The position numbers and the translations under genes are program-made. The notes below the pieces were generated by a model. That model did not search any database, was not told where the DNA came from, and worked only from the letters and a program-made list of their open reading frames with translations. A stretch of DNA of 35,247 nucleotides from a virus: positions 1 through 35,247 of the IMG/VR virus record IMGVR_UViG_3300033064_004059; one strand, 5' to 3'. Below are positions 10,468 to 35,247 of this stretch, in pieces (the stretch's first letter is position 1; every line of letters starts with the position of its first letter).

Positions 10468-11961
10468 TTAAAACTCCTTACCTCTTATACCCTTAAAGCC
10501 AACGGGGCTAGATTCTAGCGTATCCATGTCCGACATATCCAGCACGCCCAGTTGTTCTTTTAGTGCCTCGACCATCATCATGCCTGTAGCAATAATAACA
10601 TCATTGCGACGCTTGCCAGCATGGTCAAGTCGCCATCCCGCCATTGTCTGTTTTATCAAGGTATTCCGTAACTCAGCGTCCAGCACAGGCTCATTATAGC
10701 TCACAATGCGCTTGGAACGCAACATGCTTACAAAGATTTGACTGAGGTGCTGCATGTCCGTTGAAAAGTTGAAGGGCACTATAGCTGTACCAAACTTGCC
10801 TTTAAGGCGCTGGATGACATACTCCATTTGCCAAGGGTCAATCACCACTTTACGAGCCTTGAAATGCATGATACAATCCTGTATATCCTGCTCCACCTCA
10901 TCAATAGGCACATGCTCCTCAGGGGTGCCCTGCCATAGGCGTATGTTATCAATATAGATATTCTGGTCAACGGGGTCAAAGTGCCCTACTACCCTGGCCG
11001 TGCGGTCATGAGACAGGCCCAAGTCACTTGCCACAATGTAATTGACCAGTCTATCAGTAATAGGCATCGTCTGTAATAACCATGGACGAGCGTGTAGGCC
11101 ATCTATATCGTCTTCGGTAACAAACTGGCTACTTGAGCTAACCCAACGATTTTCATGTAACCGGGCAAACACATCAGGTGGCAAGCGGCGACGCTGATTG
11201 TCAATATACTCCTCCGTTATCCAGCTAGCAAGGTTCCTGTGGCTCCAAATCATAAACATGTGTGGGTCTTTCCGCCCCCGCCGCACCTCCACCTCAGGGT
11301 CACCAGTATCAAGTATAACCTCACCCTCCATGCCGTCACTATACAAGTCCCATAGTAGCCCGTTTTGCTGATAACCTGCGTATGTCACTATCACAATCAA
11401 GGGATTAGGACGTGTCGGTACTACAGTCAACTCATCGTAGAACCTACGGTCACCAAAGCCCCACAACTCATCAAAGATAGTCAGGTTAGGGTTAAGCCCT
11501 GCGGCACTTTCGTATTGATGAGCGATAACCCGTGCTGTGGTGCCCGTGCTATTGACCTCAATCCTGTCCTTAAGTAGCGCCGTGCCCTTCTTCAAGCTGG
11601 CATTGGCAGCAATGGAGCGTCGCATCTTGTTATAGATAATCATGCTACTCTGGTCTTTGGAGTTGGCGGCTATTATTATCTCGCCCAACAGGTCTTCAGT
11701 ATAAAGGAAAAGCACACCTATGCCCGCCCCCAGTGCGCTTTTGCCGTTCTTCTTTGGCAGGCCGATTAAGGCCACGTTGTACCAACGGCGACCATCAGGG
11801 CGAAACGTCTCAAAAAGGGGCTTAAGTATCCACTCCGTTTGCCAAGGTTCCAGCACAATTAGCTTACGTGTCTCAGGTATAATGTACTGGTCTTGTAGGA
11901 ACAGCACCTTATCGTTGGCGTACTGCGCCGCTCGCTCGTCGCTTATCGTCCCTTGGACCAT
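10468..11961 (-). CDS. terL: Terminase large subunit
   Basis: 497 residues, the ATP-driven DNA packaging motor with a nuclease. The ATPase has Walker A GLPKKNGKS at 67-75 and Walker B LTIFDE with D164/E165. The nuclease half shows the acidic residues of an RNase H fold: D313 (VASDLGLSHD), D375 (VVIDPW) and D453 (RNDVIIA). These features match the HK97-type Terminase_1 group. It starts with ATG at 11961 behind GAGGGG and overlaps the preceding gene by 19 bases. Portal follows directly, giving the standard order of packaging genes. Confidence 0.95.
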   Translation of the reverse strand: MVQGTISDERAAQYANDKVLFLQDQYIIPETRKLIVLEPWQTEWILKPLFETFRPDGRRWYNVALIGLPKKNGKSALGAGIGVLFLYTEDLLGEIIIAANSKDQSSMIIYNKMRRSIAANASLKKGTALLKDRIEVNSTGTTARVIAHQYESAAGLNPNLTIFDELWGFGDRRFYDELTVVPTRPNPLIVIVTYAGYQQNGLLWDLYSDGMEGEVILDTGDPEVEVRRGRKDPHMFMIWSHRNLASWITEEYIDNQRRRLPPDVFARLHENRWVSSSSQFVTEDDIDGLHARPWLLQTMPITDRLVNYIVASDLGLSHDRTARVVGHFDPVDQNIYIDNIRLWQGTPEEHVPIDEVEQDIQDCIMHFKARKVVIDPWQMEYVIQRLKGKFGTAIVPFNFSTDMQHLSQIFVSMLRSKRIVSYNEPVLDAELRNTLIKQTMAGWRLDHAGKRRNDVIIATGMMMVEALKEQLGVLDMSDMDTLESSPVGFKGIRGKEF

Positions 11962-12293
11962 AGGTCTAACCCCTCTACGCTATAAAATACAGGCTTGCCC
12001 AAGCTACGGGCGTGTGATATTTCGCTATCGGAACCCTCACTCATACCCGGTAAACGTAACAGGCAATCACAAACTGTGACCCACTCCAAAAATCTGCTCA
12101 ACCAAGCCTCCTCGCTCAGTGGTGGCTCCATTATATTATGTATAAAGCCGTACACGTGTGGAACAAATGGATTGTAGCCTTTCCGAAGCAGCTCAACGGC
12201 TACGCCTATGGTCTCATAAACGTTTTGCATCTGCTCACTGGCAGATATGCCTGCCCGTCTTCCATAAGGGCCTGCTACATATACCTTAATCAT
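11943..12293 (-). CDS. DUF4406 / nucleoside deoxyribosyltransferase-like protein
   Basis: 116 residues. It opens with KVYVAGPYGRR and continues with NPFVPHVYGF, then EEAWLSRFLEWVTVCDCLLRLPG and SEGSDSEISHARSLGKPVFY, the pattern of DUF4406, a Rossmann-like relative of nucleoside 2-deoxyribosyltransferases. The SDSEI segment holds the acidic residues expected at the active site. Activity on nucleotides is inferred from the family. It is wedged between the two terminase subunits, with a 4-base overlap to the small subunit gene and a 19-base overlap with the large. Confidence 0.8.
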   Translation of the reverse strand: MIKVYVAGPYGRRAGISASEQMQNVYETIGVAVELLRKGYNPFVPHVYGFIHNIMEPPLSEEAWLSRFLEWVTVCDCLLRLPGMSEGSDSEISHARSLGKPVFYSVEGLDLWSKGR

Positions 12294-12706
12294 GTCTCTT
12301 TTGCCTCCTGTATCCGTGAGGCTAAATCCCCCTTTTGTGGCACGTTCTTACCCATTCTTATCCTTGATTCAGGCGTTAGCCCTAGCTGTGAGCATAGCTT
12401 ACTTACCTTGCTTACACCCGCCCAAAACTGATTAAGCAGTGGGGTAACAGCGCCCCGTGACTTGCCATCGGCATCGTCCTGAAACAGCCCGTGCTCATCT
12501 ATGGCCTGGCTACAAATCTCCAGCACCGCTAGCGCCCTGGCTAACGTATCAACAATCCATTGGTCAGTCTTGGTTAGCGTAAGACCCTGTTCCTTGATAA
12601 CTGTCTCCAGCTCAATGCGCTTGGCCTCAGTCATAGGCAACAGCTTGAACTTGCTATAGACGCCGTGTGTCATGGCGGGGGGCGGCTGCTTTTGTTCTTC
12701 AACCAT
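12290..12706 (-). CDS. terS: Terminase small subunit (P27-like)
   Basis: 138 residues. It should recognise the phage DNA start site and hand it to the large subunit. The C-terminal part (KLCSQLGLTPESRIRMG) is the hallmark of the P27/Terminase_4 small subunit family, and the middle is helical. An N-terminal Pro-rich segment precedes it. The start ATG at 12706 overlaps the upstream kinase by eight bases. Only the DUF4406 gene separates it from the large subunit. Confidence 0.82.
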   Translation of the reverse strand: MVEEQKQPPPAMTHGVYSKFKLLPMTEAKRIELETVIKEQGLTLTKTDQWIVDTLARALAVLEICSQAIDEHGLFQDDADGKSRGAVTPLLNQFWAGVSKVSKLCSQLGLTPESRIRMGKNVPQKGDLASRIQEAKET

Positions 12707-13223
12707 TACTTCGCAGCTCCTTTATCATTTTATCCACCTGTAAATAAACCTCATCCAAGGGCACGCCCTCGTCATTGTCTATAGTGTAGTCAAACAGGTG
12801 ATAGTCCAGCGCTCTTTCACTGTAATCATCAATCAATACCAAGGGCATGTTAGGGTATATCTCTTTCGCAAGGGCCAGCTGCTGTAGGCGACCCATGTAC
12901 ATGCGCACCATAGTAAATCCTAGCCGTCGCATCGCATCATACTCGGCTGGAAAGCGTACATCACTAACCACAATATCCTTACCGGGTATAATACCAGGCA
13001 GCACGTGCCGTATCCACACTTGGCTATCAAGCTCCCTCATACGCTCGCCTACCTGTATTAACAATAGCCTGTCCTTTTCGTACTTAACACGTGGGAACAG
13101 TTGAGCAGCTACCTCTTTCATCTTATGGGCAAAGGCTAGCTCCGTAAAGCCGTAAGTTTTCACTAGGCAGTCGGCTACTAGGCTCTTGCCTGATAACATT
13201 TTGCCTGATAGTGCTATGCGCAT
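12699..13223 (-). CDS. Deoxynucleoside monophosphate kinase
   Basis: 174 residues, P-loop kinase. Walker A is GKMLSGKS at residues 7-14 and a later VVSDVRFPAEYDAMRRLG segment is the acceptor/Walker B-like strand characteristic of phage dNMP kinases (T4 gp1 type). It converts dNMPs to dNDPs and so feeds replication; some phage members accept modified nucleotides. It lies directly upstream of the small terminase and overlaps it by eight bases. Family call confident, substrate range unknown. Confidence 0.85.
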   Translation of the reverse strand: MRIALSGKMLSGKSLVADCLVKTYGFTELAFAHKMKEVAAQLFPRVKYEKDRLLLIQVGERMRELDSQVWIRHVLPGIIPGKDIVVSDVRFPAEYDAMRRLGFTMVRMYMGRLQQLALAKEIYPNMPLVLIDDYSERALDYHLFDYTIDNDEGVPLDEVYLQVDKMIKELRSNG

Positions 13224-13420
13224 TCTAGTGGCCTCTCTCCAAACACAACATTAAACATAGGGCCAAAGAACCAAAAAGCCTCTTGTACCCCTGCCTCCTC
13301 ATCAGCCAGCTCCTTATCTGGAAAAGGGTTAGCGTCCCATAAGTCTCGTAGGGTCGCTTCAGGTATCGTTACGCCTTCCTTGCGAGCAATCTCCACAAAG
13401 CGCTCAAATATCATTTTCAT
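13214..13420 (-). CDS. Hypothetical small protein
   Basis: 68 residues, unrecognised. It is acidic with an aromatic-rich C-terminus (QEAFWFFGPMFNVVFG). Two possible ATG starts lie two codons apart; the outer one at 13420 is better placed behind an AGG. It overlaps the kinase start by ten bases and lies seven bases after the PLP-enzyme gene, so it is co-transcribed with both. Confidence 0.6.
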   Translation of the reverse strand: MKMIFERFVEIARKEGVTIPEATLRDLWDANPFPDKELADEEAGVQEAFWFFGPMFNVVFGERPLECA

Positions 13421-13427
13421 TAAGCAC

Positions 13428-14465
13428 CTACCCTATGTTCCAGTATAATATCGGGTCTTTCAAATCGTCTATATGCTCGCATAACCAGCGCCATGCCTTG
13501 CGGTCATACCACTTGTCGCAGGTAAAGGGGCACGGGTAATTGTCGTCTGCATAATACTCTCTATCACCCAGCACAATCCGAAAGCGTAAGGGCTCAAAGC
13601 CTGCGGGCAGCAGCCCTGCAATACGCTTATGGACGATAGCATGTGGGTCAGCCTTGCTTCTACCATCTATCTCGCCCGATGTCATTCCAATGTAAACGCC
13701 TATAATATCATTGGCCTTTTTCAGCCCCATCAACATCCCGGCAAACATGGTGCCTGTAGCTACCACACACACGATTGTCCCTTTCAACAGTTTCGTTGGT
13801 AAGGTTGATGCCTCACCTGCCACTGAAAAGATAGATTCGCTTAACTGCCCGCCCATAGGCAACAGGTAGATACCTCGGTCTTGGCACTGTATTCTAGCCT
13901 TGTAGTACATCGGGTAAATACGGCTAGCTGGCATTGAGATTAACTCCGCACCAGCATTGGCAGCCTGCTGCTGAAAGTAGGGCACAATGTTACCTTGTGC
14001 CTTAAGCAGCCCGAAGAACACAGTACATTTCATGCCCAAGTCACGGCATAATTCAGCTACGCCCCAGCCCAAGCGGCTAGTTCTAGAGTCCAACACTGCT
14101 ACGTGGCTTATCCCTCGGTCAATCAGCGCCCGCAAGTGTACCTCAATCCCTCGCAGCTTCGCATTGCCACCACCGTACTTCCCATTGTCCCATAAATCAT
14201 CTCGCTTGACAAAAATGGCACGATTACTGGGCTGTAAAATATACCGCTCAATGAGTGTGTGCTTACGGCCAGGGGCACCATTCCAATAGCTGCCGATAAA
14301 CTGGGCACAGGCGCAGCGCCCACAGAGCCTTTCATTTATATGCCCGTCTTGCCATGCCTGGCTACCGGGGCGGGCGGGCGTAACTATGTCATCATACTTG
14401 TCATCCTCATCAGGTGGCGTTGTCTTGCCACATATTTCGCAGGGCTGTAGGCGCTCCTCTACCAT
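13428..14465 (-). CDS. Zinc-ribbon plus PLP-dependent (fold type II) enzyme
   Basis: 345 residues. Residues 9-53 hold two Cys pairs (CEIC, then CGRCAC), a likely zinc ribbon. Residues 84-300 resemble fold type II PLP enzymes of the ACC deaminase/D-cysteine desulfhydrase/TrpB kind: VKRDDLWDNGKYGGGNAKLR, in which K103 is the candidate Schiff-base lysine; SRTSRLGWGVAELCRDLG, corresponding to the substrate-binding 'SNH' region; and VATGTMFAGMLMGL at 235-248 as the phosphate-binding glycine loop. The C-terminus carries two more Cys (PCPFTC). A PLP enzyme between replication and packaging genes in a phage is uncommon. Its substrate is unknown: amino-acid metabolism or modification of DNA bases are both possible. 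Strong AGGAG site before ATG 14465. Confidence 0.75.
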   Translation of the reverse strand: MVEERLQPCEICGKTTPPDEDDKYDDIVTPARPGSQAWQDGHINERLCGRCACAQFIGSYWNGAPGRKHTLIERYILQPSNRAIFVKRDDLWDNGKYGGGNAKLRGIEVHLRALIDRGISHVAVLDSRTSRLGWGVAELCRDLGMKCTVFFGLLKAQGNIVPYFQQQAANAGAELISMPASRIYPMYYKARIQCQDRGIYLLPMGGQLSESIFSVAGEASTLPTKLLKGTIVCVVATGTMFAGMLMGLKKANDIIGVYIGMTSGEIDGRSKADPHAIVHKRIAGLLPAGFEPLRFRIVLGDREYYADDNYPCPFTCDKWYDRKAWRWLCEHIDDLKDPILYWNIG

Positions 14466-17986: not shown

Positions 17987-20254
17987 CTAAATCAACTCTC
18001 CAAGGTTGTCGCCTGTCTTACATTTTACCATAAGTGGCACAGGGAAGTCCAATCCCTCCATTGCCACCTGTAGTTTGGGCGTTAAATCGTCCAATAAGTC
18101 TATAGGTATATCAAAAATAAGCTCGTCGTGTATGTTCATGATAGGTATCCAAACTTTAGCTGCTGCTATTATAGATAGCTTAAAGATGCCCCCGGCAGTG
18201 CTTGCTATAGGGAAGTTTATAGCCTCCCTCATAGCACTGGCAAATACACGAGGATTCCTGCTATTGACATTAGGCAAATAGCGTCTTCTGCCATAGTAAT
18301 CTTCCACATAACCCTCGCACTGGGCAAAGGCTTTTGTCTCCTCGTGGTAATCCCCTAGACGTGGGAACTTGATAAAGTAGCTATCAATCAAGCCCTGGCA
18401 CTCCTGGATGGACGGCGGCGTGCCCATCTTTTCAAGGTCAAACTCCCCCATTGGAGCATTAAGGTAAATGTGAAGGCTCTTCGCAGTGCCACCATATATG
18501 GTCAGGTAGCTAGCAGATTTGATAATGTGCCTATGCATAGGGCTAGCATCACCAAACAGCTTAATTGCCATATAATCATGAATGTCATCACCTCTAGCAA
18601 AGGCCTCCAGTAGCTCAGGGTCATTGGCAATCACGGCCAGAACACGCATATCCACTTGACTGTAATCAATACCTAGTAACTTGTTACCTGGCCGGGCAAC
18701 AAAGGGCCTACGAGCAGCGTACATATATGGCAGATTTTGTAGATTAGGCTCGCTCGAGGATAAGCGCCCAGTAACAACCCTTGTCTGATTCCAGTTAGTA
18801 TGTATAATGTCATCCGCATCAGCCAGCTCCAAACAAGCGTCCGCATACGTGCTAATCAGCTTGTTAAGCTGCTTCCTGCGTAGAATAGGCGTAATAGATG
18901 GGTGCTGGTCTTGCATGCCTGTGAGGACTTCTTTACCTGTGATGTACTGCTTGGACTTGCGGGTCTTGGGTAGCCGTAACCCTTGGTCCACCAGCCAGTT
19001 GCCTAGCTTTTGAGCACTATTCAAAAAGTCAGGCATAAGGTCAAAATCATCAAGCAATTGGCGCTCTAGTACATCACGTTCCTCCACTAACTCACCCCTC
19101 CATTGGCGCACATATTCCAAATCACACTTTGTTCCAAGGCGCTCCATATCAGCTAACACAGGGATTAGCGGCTTTTCAATGGTTTCGTACACATAGCGCT
19201 CTTGCTCGTCCGCATTTTCGATTAAGTAGCGCCACAATCGCATTGTAGCGTCTGTGTCCTGGCTACAATACTGCGCTGTCTCCTCAAGTGGTACATCTTC
19301 CAATGTGCCGTCCTCAACCATGCTATCATAATCAGGGTGCGTTAAGTTTAGTTCCTGTGTTTCCAGTACCTTCAGCTTCAGATTGGGATATGCCATACAA
19401 TAAGCAAGCACCTGTGTATCCTCAACCTCCTTGTACTGGCCCTTCCAGCCATTGTCTAATAATACCCGTAAATCATACTTGGCATTATGGAATAATAGTC
19501 GCTGGTCTTTTGAGTAAATATTCATCCATTTTATAAGGCTTTGAGGCGTATGATACGTGGCTGTCTCAGGCTTAAGGCTAATTGAGCCCCCTAGTAGCTT
19601 GCCATAAAGCCCTACAGTTTCCGTATCAATACACACTAAACACTCACCAAGGGGTAAAGGCACAGAGGCGTCATTGTTGATAAGATAATGCCCTTTAACC
19701 TCCTCCAAGTAAGGCGTAGCTGGCAGGTTGATAAAATCATTAAGGATTAGCTGCTGCATAAAGGTGCTATCTTTCGCTCTTTTGGGGTCGTACATTATCA
19801 CATAGGTGCGATTATTCTGCATAAGGGCCTTGCCATGATAGCGTACTAGCGAATAACCGGGTAACAACGCTTGCTGAGCTGCTTCACCTAGTATCATGAC
19901 CCATGCAGGGTTATAGTACTCAAGCTCCGCTAATAGCCGGGGCTGGCATGACCGCCACATGAGCGCAGTTGGCACTTTACCAGTATCCACAGCACATTGA
20001 CAGGCAAAGGTTAAGTAACAGTCGTCAAGGTCAATGTCTGCTTGAGGCATTAGCGTATTCTGTAGAAACTTGCCCCTATAATCAGCAAAAGGGGTGCTAT
20101 ACCGCACAGTAGATGTGCTGGGGGCATTGAACACTAGCCAGATAGACGCTGTGGGCAGGCCAAAGCCGTCTATGCGCTGTCGCCCTCGTAGTTTACACTT
20201 CTTACAGTTAGGCTCCCCGTAGCCTAGCTCCTCAACTGCCTGTTTCTTTGCCAT
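17987..20254 (-). CDS. DNA polymerase I with N-terminal Fe-S UDG-like domain
   Basis: 755 residues. Residues 1-165 resemble family 4 uracil-DNA glycosylases: C17, C20, C87 and C103 match the spacing of the four 4Fe-4S ligands. The usual catalytic 'HPA/HPS' is YDP at 155-157, so activity is doubtful. Residues 205-390 are a 3'-5' exonuclease with D210/E212, NAKYD and YCSQD. The polymerase has motif A D530-YSQ, motif B R575/K579/Y583 and motif C H709-D710-E711. Y583 stands where E. coli Pol I has F762. A UDG-like domain on a phage family A polymerase is also known from SPO1. The start ATG 20254 has a weak ribosome site and overlaps a tiny MIPTK frame by TAATG. Confidence 0.93.
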   Translation of the reverse strand: MAKKQAVEELGYGEPNCKKCKLRGRQRIDGFGLPTASIWLVFNAPSTSTVRYSTPFADYRGKFLQNTLMPQADIDLDDCYLTFACQCAVDTGKVPTALMWRSCQPRLLAELEYYNPAWVMILGEAAQQALLPGYSLVRYHGKALMQNNRTYVIMYDPKRAKDSTFMQQLILNDFINLPATPYLEEVKGHYLINNDASVPLPLGECLVCIDTETVGLYGKLLGGSISLKPETATYHTPQSLIKWMNIYSKDQRLLFHNAKYDLRVLLDNGWKGQYKEVEDTQVLAYCMAYPNLKLKVLETQELNLTHPDYDSMVEDGTLEDVPLEETAQYCSQDTDATMRLWRYLIENADEQERYVYETIEKPLIPVLADMERLGTKCDLEYVRQWRGELVEERDVLERQLLDDFDLMPDFLNSAQKLGNWLVDQGLRLPKTRKSKQYITGKEVLTGMQDQHPSITPILRRKQLNKLISTYADACLELADADDIIHTNWNQTRVVTGRLSSSEPNLQNLPYMYAARRPFVARPGNKLLGIDYSQVDMRVLAVIANDPELLEAFARGDDIHDYMAIKLFGDASPMHRHIIKSASYLTIYGGTAKSLHIYLNAPMGEFDLEKMGTPPSIQECQGLIDSYFIKFPRLGDYHEETKAFAQCEGYVEDYYGRRRYLPNVNSRNPRVFASAMREAINFPIASTAGGIFKLSIIAAAKVWIPIMNIHDELIFDIPIDLLDDLTPKLQVAMEGLDFPVPLMVKCKTGDNLGELI

Positions 20255-34913: not shown

Positions 34914-35247
34914 TTATGCTAGCCCCGTGGTCACGTTACGGGCTTTCAAGTGTAATAGTTCTTCCCTCACCATCACTGCCACACCACGCTCAGTCATTAT
35001 ACTGCCCTGCGCATATACATTCACTGTAATACCTCCGCCCCCGGCCCCCAAGAACCGCTCACCACCATGCGCTATAACAGGTATTGGCTTACCAATAGGT
35101 CCACGTACTATGCCACCATATTGGAGGCTGGGGGGCATGGGCGCTGGCGAAGGCGGCATGGGCGCTGGCAATTCGCCGCCCGCCCCTCGGGCCAACCATT
35201 CCTCATGCGTTGGCTGTCGATATTTCTTACCTGGCGGGGGCATGGGC
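34914..35247 (-). CDS. Tape measure protein, C-terminal part
   Basis: Continuation of the gene at 1-1236 across the contig join; the codon phase at 35247 equals that at base 1. It contains one 35-residue repeat (35142-35246), then SLQYGGIVRGPIGKPIPVIA, HGGERFLG and ITVNVYAQGSIMTERGVAVM, an ending typical of TP901-type tape measure proteins. Stop at 34914. Confidence 0.92.
   Translation of the reverse strand, partial: PMPPPGKKYRQPTHEEWLARGAGGELPAPMPPSPAPMPPSLQYGGIVRGPIGKPIPVIAHGGERFLGAGGGGITVNVYAQGSIMTERGVAVMVREELLHLKARNVTTGLA
35142..35247 (-). repeat. 105-bp repeat copy at the window end, identical to bases 1-106
   Basis: The last 106 bases repeat the first 106 exactly. This is either assembly overlap of a circular contig (one copy counted twice) or a third true tandem copy. 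Both keep the tape measure frame open. Confidence 0.9.

Follow-up and report, generated by a model that had tools for sequence, protein, structure and literature searches.

A divergent phage PLP enzyme with an N-terminal cysteine module, related to the thymidine-hypermodification enzyme of phage M6

What does a PLP enzyme act on in a phage genome of about 35 kb? The window (the whole stretch of 35,247 nucleotides that was analysed, IMG/VR record IMGVR_UViG_3300033064_004059) carries a PLP enzyme gene at 13428..14465 on the minus strand, and the first-pass annotation had proposed that it may belong to a nucleotide or DNA modification route. Free amino-acid metabolism is a serious rival to this modification reading. 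Judged from its sequence, the enzyme branches deeply within the phage family to which the M6-type thymidine-hypermodification enzyme belongs. By sequence it is a member of phrog_7093, yet its gene lies outside the context that defines the M6 enzyme, and its pocket lacks the features of that enzyme.

Sequence, fold and family of the PLP protein

The reading frame encodes 345 aa, begins with an ATG preceded by AGAGGAG, a well-formed ribosome-binding site, and lies in a dense string of minus-strand genes. The protein matches Pfam PALP (3.9e-10, 40 bits against a curated cut-off of 35) and phrog_7093 of PHROGs, labelled 'threonine dehydratase' (2.2e-34). An AlphaFold2 model, for which 48 relatives were the input, reached a pLDDT of 85 and a pTM of 0.81; most of the catalytic region exceeded 90 and residues 1-66 were of low confidence. 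The best Foldseek neighbour of this model was D-cysteine desulfhydrase (4d8u, E 9.5e-14), and ACC deaminase and threonine deaminase were also found. Both the assignment to fold type II made by the first-pass annotation and the structure prediction that it had called for as a check thus came out in its favour, and fold and family are well supported.

The landmarks that had been read from this chain are all present, namely the two N-terminal Cys pairs, the lysine of GGGNAK and the loop VATGTMFAG. K103 (14157..14159, minus strand), the predicted Schiff-base lysine, is invariant among 51 relatives and stands opposite the GGNK lysine of ACC deaminase in the phmmer alignment. VATGTMFAG (residues 235-243; 13737..13763, minus strand), the PLP phosphate loop predicted from the alignment, is aligned with ISSGTVAAG of M6 gp52. 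The enzyme is predicted from these kept catalytic residues to be catalytically intact. Residues 1-66 (14268..14465, minus strand) form a CxxC-x35-CxxC module, putatively zinc-binding in view of its cysteine conservation, with C9/C12 and C48/C51 as the two pairs and C53 in addition. A C-terminal Cys pair had also been claimed: C312 and C316 are indeed there, but whereas C316 runs through the whole family, most relatives in the alignment have no C312, and we dropped the idea of a metal site at this end.

The closest named relative of the protein is gp52 of the thymidine-hypermodification cassette of Pseudomonas phage M6, whose gene sits between gp51 and gp53; the Pfam labels of gp51 and gp54 are 'amino acid:DNA transferase' and '5-hmdU DNA kinase' respectively. 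The DNA of M6 contains 5-(2-aminoethyl)deoxyuridine (PMC6449724), and in Sphaerotilus phage SN1 the PLP enzyme has been counted among the M6-like base-modifying cassette genes, together with a pyrimidine hydroxymethylase, a nucleotide kinase, a radical SAM protein and an aGPT-Pplase (PMC9476957). Like gp52 and SN1_023 of these 5-NedU cassettes (PMC9476957, PMC6449724), the window protein belongs to phrog_7093; it is 31-34% identical to them over the catalytic region and has the same lysine, the same loops and the same C-terminal YDxKAWxWL...WNIG. It differs in the extra cysteine module and in five changed pocket positions, and no radical SAM, ADDT, 5-hmdU kinase or TS gene of the M6 cassette was detected in the window. 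The first-pass annotation had mentioned thymidine hypermodification as something in which PLP enzymes, not necessarily of this fold, take part. The link is actually stronger than that, a matter of homology and not of mere analogy, because the M6-like hypermodification enzyme shares both fold and family with the window protein.

Among isolated phages, tblastn matched almost only M6-like phages of Pseudomonas, Bordetella, Stenotrophomonas and Sphaerotilus, with more distant matches in Pseudanabaena phage Pam3 and in Erythrobacter phages. No plasmid relative was found. A patterned search with the window protein alone gave no relatives, the family alignment being needed; the IMG/VR search with the family alignment or profile gave 76 loci, and one more (L092) was added by a later search. 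In the tree, the window protein and that of locus L008 are grouped at 100/100 inside the phrog_7093 family and outside the main cassette clade, the deeper placement of the window protein being uncertain because of long branches.

Regarding the active site, K103, S130, T239, G243, C316, Y320-D321, K323-A324, W327 and W342-N343-G345 are common to the window and cassette enzymes. Five pocket positions behave differently: H129, S183, N204, S236 and Y261 are present in all 34 cassette rows of the alignment and none of them in the window lineage, where the window and L008 show H129->T, S183->I/V, N204->M, S236->A and Y261->M. The same five positions are changed in the other cassette-free groups too. 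Since the catalytic scaffold is kept while the cassette pocket residues are changed, the natural reading of this correlation is that PLP chemistry has been retained and that the substrate would be a different one.

A trio of genomes and its missing pathway genes

The four cysteines of the N-terminal module are fully conserved across the window, the L008 record (40.7 kb; PLP protein 62% identical to that of the window) and the L092 record (34.8 kb; 69%), and are missing from the cassette-type relatives aligned. The module alone as query gave nothing convincing in phages, and scans seeded with the module or with the neighbouring kinase gave no additional close relative. Two Anaerolinea matches (L085 and L086, reported span 5-345) that appeared to be relatives with the module were rejected, as they are M6-type phage contigs with a PLP protein of 278 aa.

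Genes for packaging, structure, replication, recombination and an integrase occur throughout this trio, and the only accessory genes that do so are the PLP gene and a gene of the dNMP-kinase type. Between the window and L092 the PLP gene is the most conserved gene of all (69%, with TerL at 66%), and between the window and L008 it is on par with both the kinase and TerL (62%, 64% and 67% respectively). Its pN in the trio is 0.21-0.24 and its pN/pS about 0.3, with synonymous sites saturated. With 62-69% identity and such a ratio at saturated synonymous sites, the conservation is not due to chance, and the PLP gene is under strong purifying selection.

Downstream of the PLP gene lies the P-loop kinase (12699..13223, minus strand; phrog_139, 5.5e-30), which is 62-64% identical in L008 and L092 and adjoins the PLP gene in both. 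We considered it as a 5-hmdU DNA kinase and dropped this possibility, as it has no PF18748 match, the M6 control does match, and its family is phrog_139 instead. It is related to dNMP kinases of the ordinary kind found in phages of Streptomyces, Enterococcus and Bacillus. This type is common among phages without known modification, and therefore its presence alone carries little information; the weight that the first-pass annotation had placed on it as a hint of a modification route is correspondingly reduced. In the window the two genes are separated by an ORF of 68 aa (13214..13420, minus strand) that has no family match and occurs in the window only; the same interval holds no ORF in L008 and a methylase-like ORF in L092.

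The string of the PLP gene continues with the terminase small subunit (12290..12706, minus strand; Pfam Terminase_4, 2.1e-8), a DUF7768/nucleoside deoxyribosyltransferase-like gene (11943..12293, minus strand; phrog_355, 1.2e-15) and the terminase large subunit (10468..11961, minus strand; phrog_9, 2.3e-49), which is 66-67% identical in L008 and L092. The deoxyribosyltransferase-like gene, taken earlier for a DUF4406-like neighbour and a second hint of a modification route, is absent between the two terminase genes in L008 and L092; it loses force as a hint, and we no longer regard it as a fixed partner. A different nucleoside deoxyribosyltransferase-like gene is found in the L008 genome away from the terminase region (L088:13763-14173).

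As an observation on the replication genes of the trio, the DNA polymerase A of the window (17987-20254) carries a uracil-DNA-glycosylase domain at its N-terminus (Pfam UDG, 9.9e-13), in which the motif GEAPGE, kept in L008 and L092, reads FNAPST. Primase-helicase, UDG and polymerase form a single chain of 1,364-1,400 aa in the two other genomes (L008:3779-7978 and L092:2903-6994) and are split over two separate genes in the window.

The two ends of the window overlap exactly over 106 bases, within a 105-base tandem repeat (1-205 and 35142-35247) that lies in frame in the tape-measure gene, and once they are joined there is one open tape-measure frame. Therefore, the record most likely covers a whole circular genome of about 35.1 kb (its IMG/VR class is linear). 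Neither in the window nor in the L008 record was there a match to ADDT (PF18724), 5-hmdU DNA kinase (PF18748), radical SAM (PF04055) or TS (PF00303), all four of which matched M6 as positive control; these were searches with family profiles, which very divergent enzymes can escape. The L092 record has no PF18724, PF04055 or PF00303 match, and HMMs made from four cassette phages likewise found no cassette genes in the window. The earlier remark that no hydroxymethyl-pyrimidine synthase is visible thus holds over the apparently complete genome with the TS profile. Furthermore, no enzyme loading an amino acid onto DNA or a nucleotide could be recognised in these 35 kb.

Proposed activity and competing readings

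Because a cysteine front end has been added, the pocket has changed and the partner genes were not found, the enzyme probably performs a related chemistry on a different substrate. The best explanation is that it belongs to a branch of the hypermodification PLP family that carries a zinc module and has specialised on another substrate, a nucleotide or DNA bearing an amino acid; to this we give slightly less than an even chance. As the genes that make glycyl-thymidine were not found, the substrate should not be glycyl-thymidine derived from 5-hmdU; since the known substrate could not be made with the genes found, it would probably be a different nucleotide or base with an amino acid attached, provided by other steps of phage or host. 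K103 would hold PLP, and an external aldimine would then be formed with the free alpha-amino group of the amino-acid side chain carried by the nucleotide or DNA. Removal of CO2 or another remodelling at C-alpha may follow, the simplest case being decarboxylation, as believed for gp52. Lee et al. reportedly described in 2021 a decarboxylase role for the M6-type PLP enzyme. The N-terminal module, which is probably zinc-binding, may contribute to binding of the nucleic acid or of a partner, and the likely pay-off for the phage would be DNA shielded from host nucleases. A narrower proposal is that this phage lineage of about 35 kb, with none of the known hypermodification genes that were looked for, has a PLP-dependent modification of nucleic acid or nucleotides with a starting point other than 5-hydroxymethyluracil, in which the cysteine-module enzyme and the dNMP kinase would make or trim an amino-acid-derived base; this we consider possible but somewhat unlikely.

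The nearest structures, D-cysteine desulfhydrase, ACC deaminase and threonine deaminase, together with a genome in which the searches found no modification partners, would also suit an ordinary small-molecule amino-acid lyase of the desulfhydrase, deaminase or dehydratase type, by which the phage would adjust host metabolism, such as the supply of sulfur or pyruvate. D-cysteine desulfhydrase and ACC deaminase share with the window protein the fold type II and the GGN(x)K lysine motif and are its best solved structural neighbours. However, identity to them is only 16-20%, and the protein scores 23.1 bits against a cut-off of 392 with the ACC deaminase equivalog (TIGR01274) and 16.3 bits against 289.4 with the D-cysteine desulfhydrase subfamily (TIGR01275). 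Moreover, it stops at the WNIG loop and its substrate-binding loop is different (S-R-x-GW). The nearest sequences are those of phage hypermodification enzymes, terminase-level conservation in a genome of about 35 kb is not what such a lyase would lead one to expect, and the extra cysteine module is left unexplained. For these reasons we hold this reading to be rather unlikely.

The substrate could also come from a phage DNA methylase or from a host-encoded step, the PLP enzyme elaborating the product. In R6L of Erythrobacter (gp1, L006:10744-13164) and Pam4 of Pseudanabaena (Pam4_70, L007:4771-7257), a related phage PALP domain with the lysine kept is inserted between the DPFAGGS and SCPPY stretches of an N4/N6 DNA methylase, unlike the free-standing window protein, and the M6 cassette search gave no ADDT, TS or radical-SAM match in R6L. 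These inserts are a further, separate link to DNA modification that also favours the main reading, and the methylase-like ORF of L092 between the PLP gene and the kinase is another such hint; both agree with such a source of substrate, as do the two DNA methylases of the window. Nevertheless, the latter lie 14 kb from the PLP gene, and since no methylase could be recognised in the genome of L008, methylation is not what the three have in common; we judge this source improbable.

Membership of the hypermodification family (phrog_7093) and the cassette genes not being found would fit a remnant of the M6-type 5-NedU pathway, descended from a cassette carrier that lost the other genes and persisting with little or a moonlighting function, but the purifying selection described above, the fact that three divergent genomes have independently kept the gene together with a new N-terminal module, the intact catalytic residues and the position of the trio outside the main cassette clade make this very improbable.

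Genomic settings of the wider family

Among the 76 IMG/VR loci, 53 have an M6-type radical-SAM gene, and 51 of these 53 also have an ADDT-like gene. The other 23 have no cassette gene within the stretches examined, some of which are partial (L056, L068). Nine of these cassette-free loci (L009, L010, L023, L030, L042, L045, L047, L048 and L058) have a divergent radical-SAM neighbour in common. Like the window, loci of this kind (L042, L045, L047, L058 and others) are without detected ADDT or TS and without the cassette-specific His and Asn; unlike the window, they keep a radical-SAM neighbour and have no cysteine module. No ADDT or TS was found with the family profiles in the searched records of the group, one of which (from the set L023, L042, L045, L047, L048 and L058) is 79.7 kb long.

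This distribution suggests that the hypermodification PLP enzymes are part of a wider phage family whose members occur in no fewer than four genomic settings: within the M6 cassette, with a radical-SAM gene only, inside DNA methylases, and, bearing the cysteine module, beside a kinase. In the sequences searched, no 5-hmdU machinery could be recognised for the last three. If the non-cassette enzymes act on nucleic acids, undescribed amino-acid-derived bases await discovery, and the window lineage would be the simplest example, having a single PLP enzyme and a single kinase. The split of residues between cassette and non-cassette enzymes gives a direct route to mapping the positions of substrate choice.

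Two further arrangements were seen. A tight set of near-identical, strongly diverged PLP relatives occurs on short contigs (L061, L063-L067, L076, L077 and L081), with no cassette gene within the stretches examined. Finally, one phage locus (L021:9947-11546, also L022) carries a tandem pair of PLP genes of the family, both strongly diverged.
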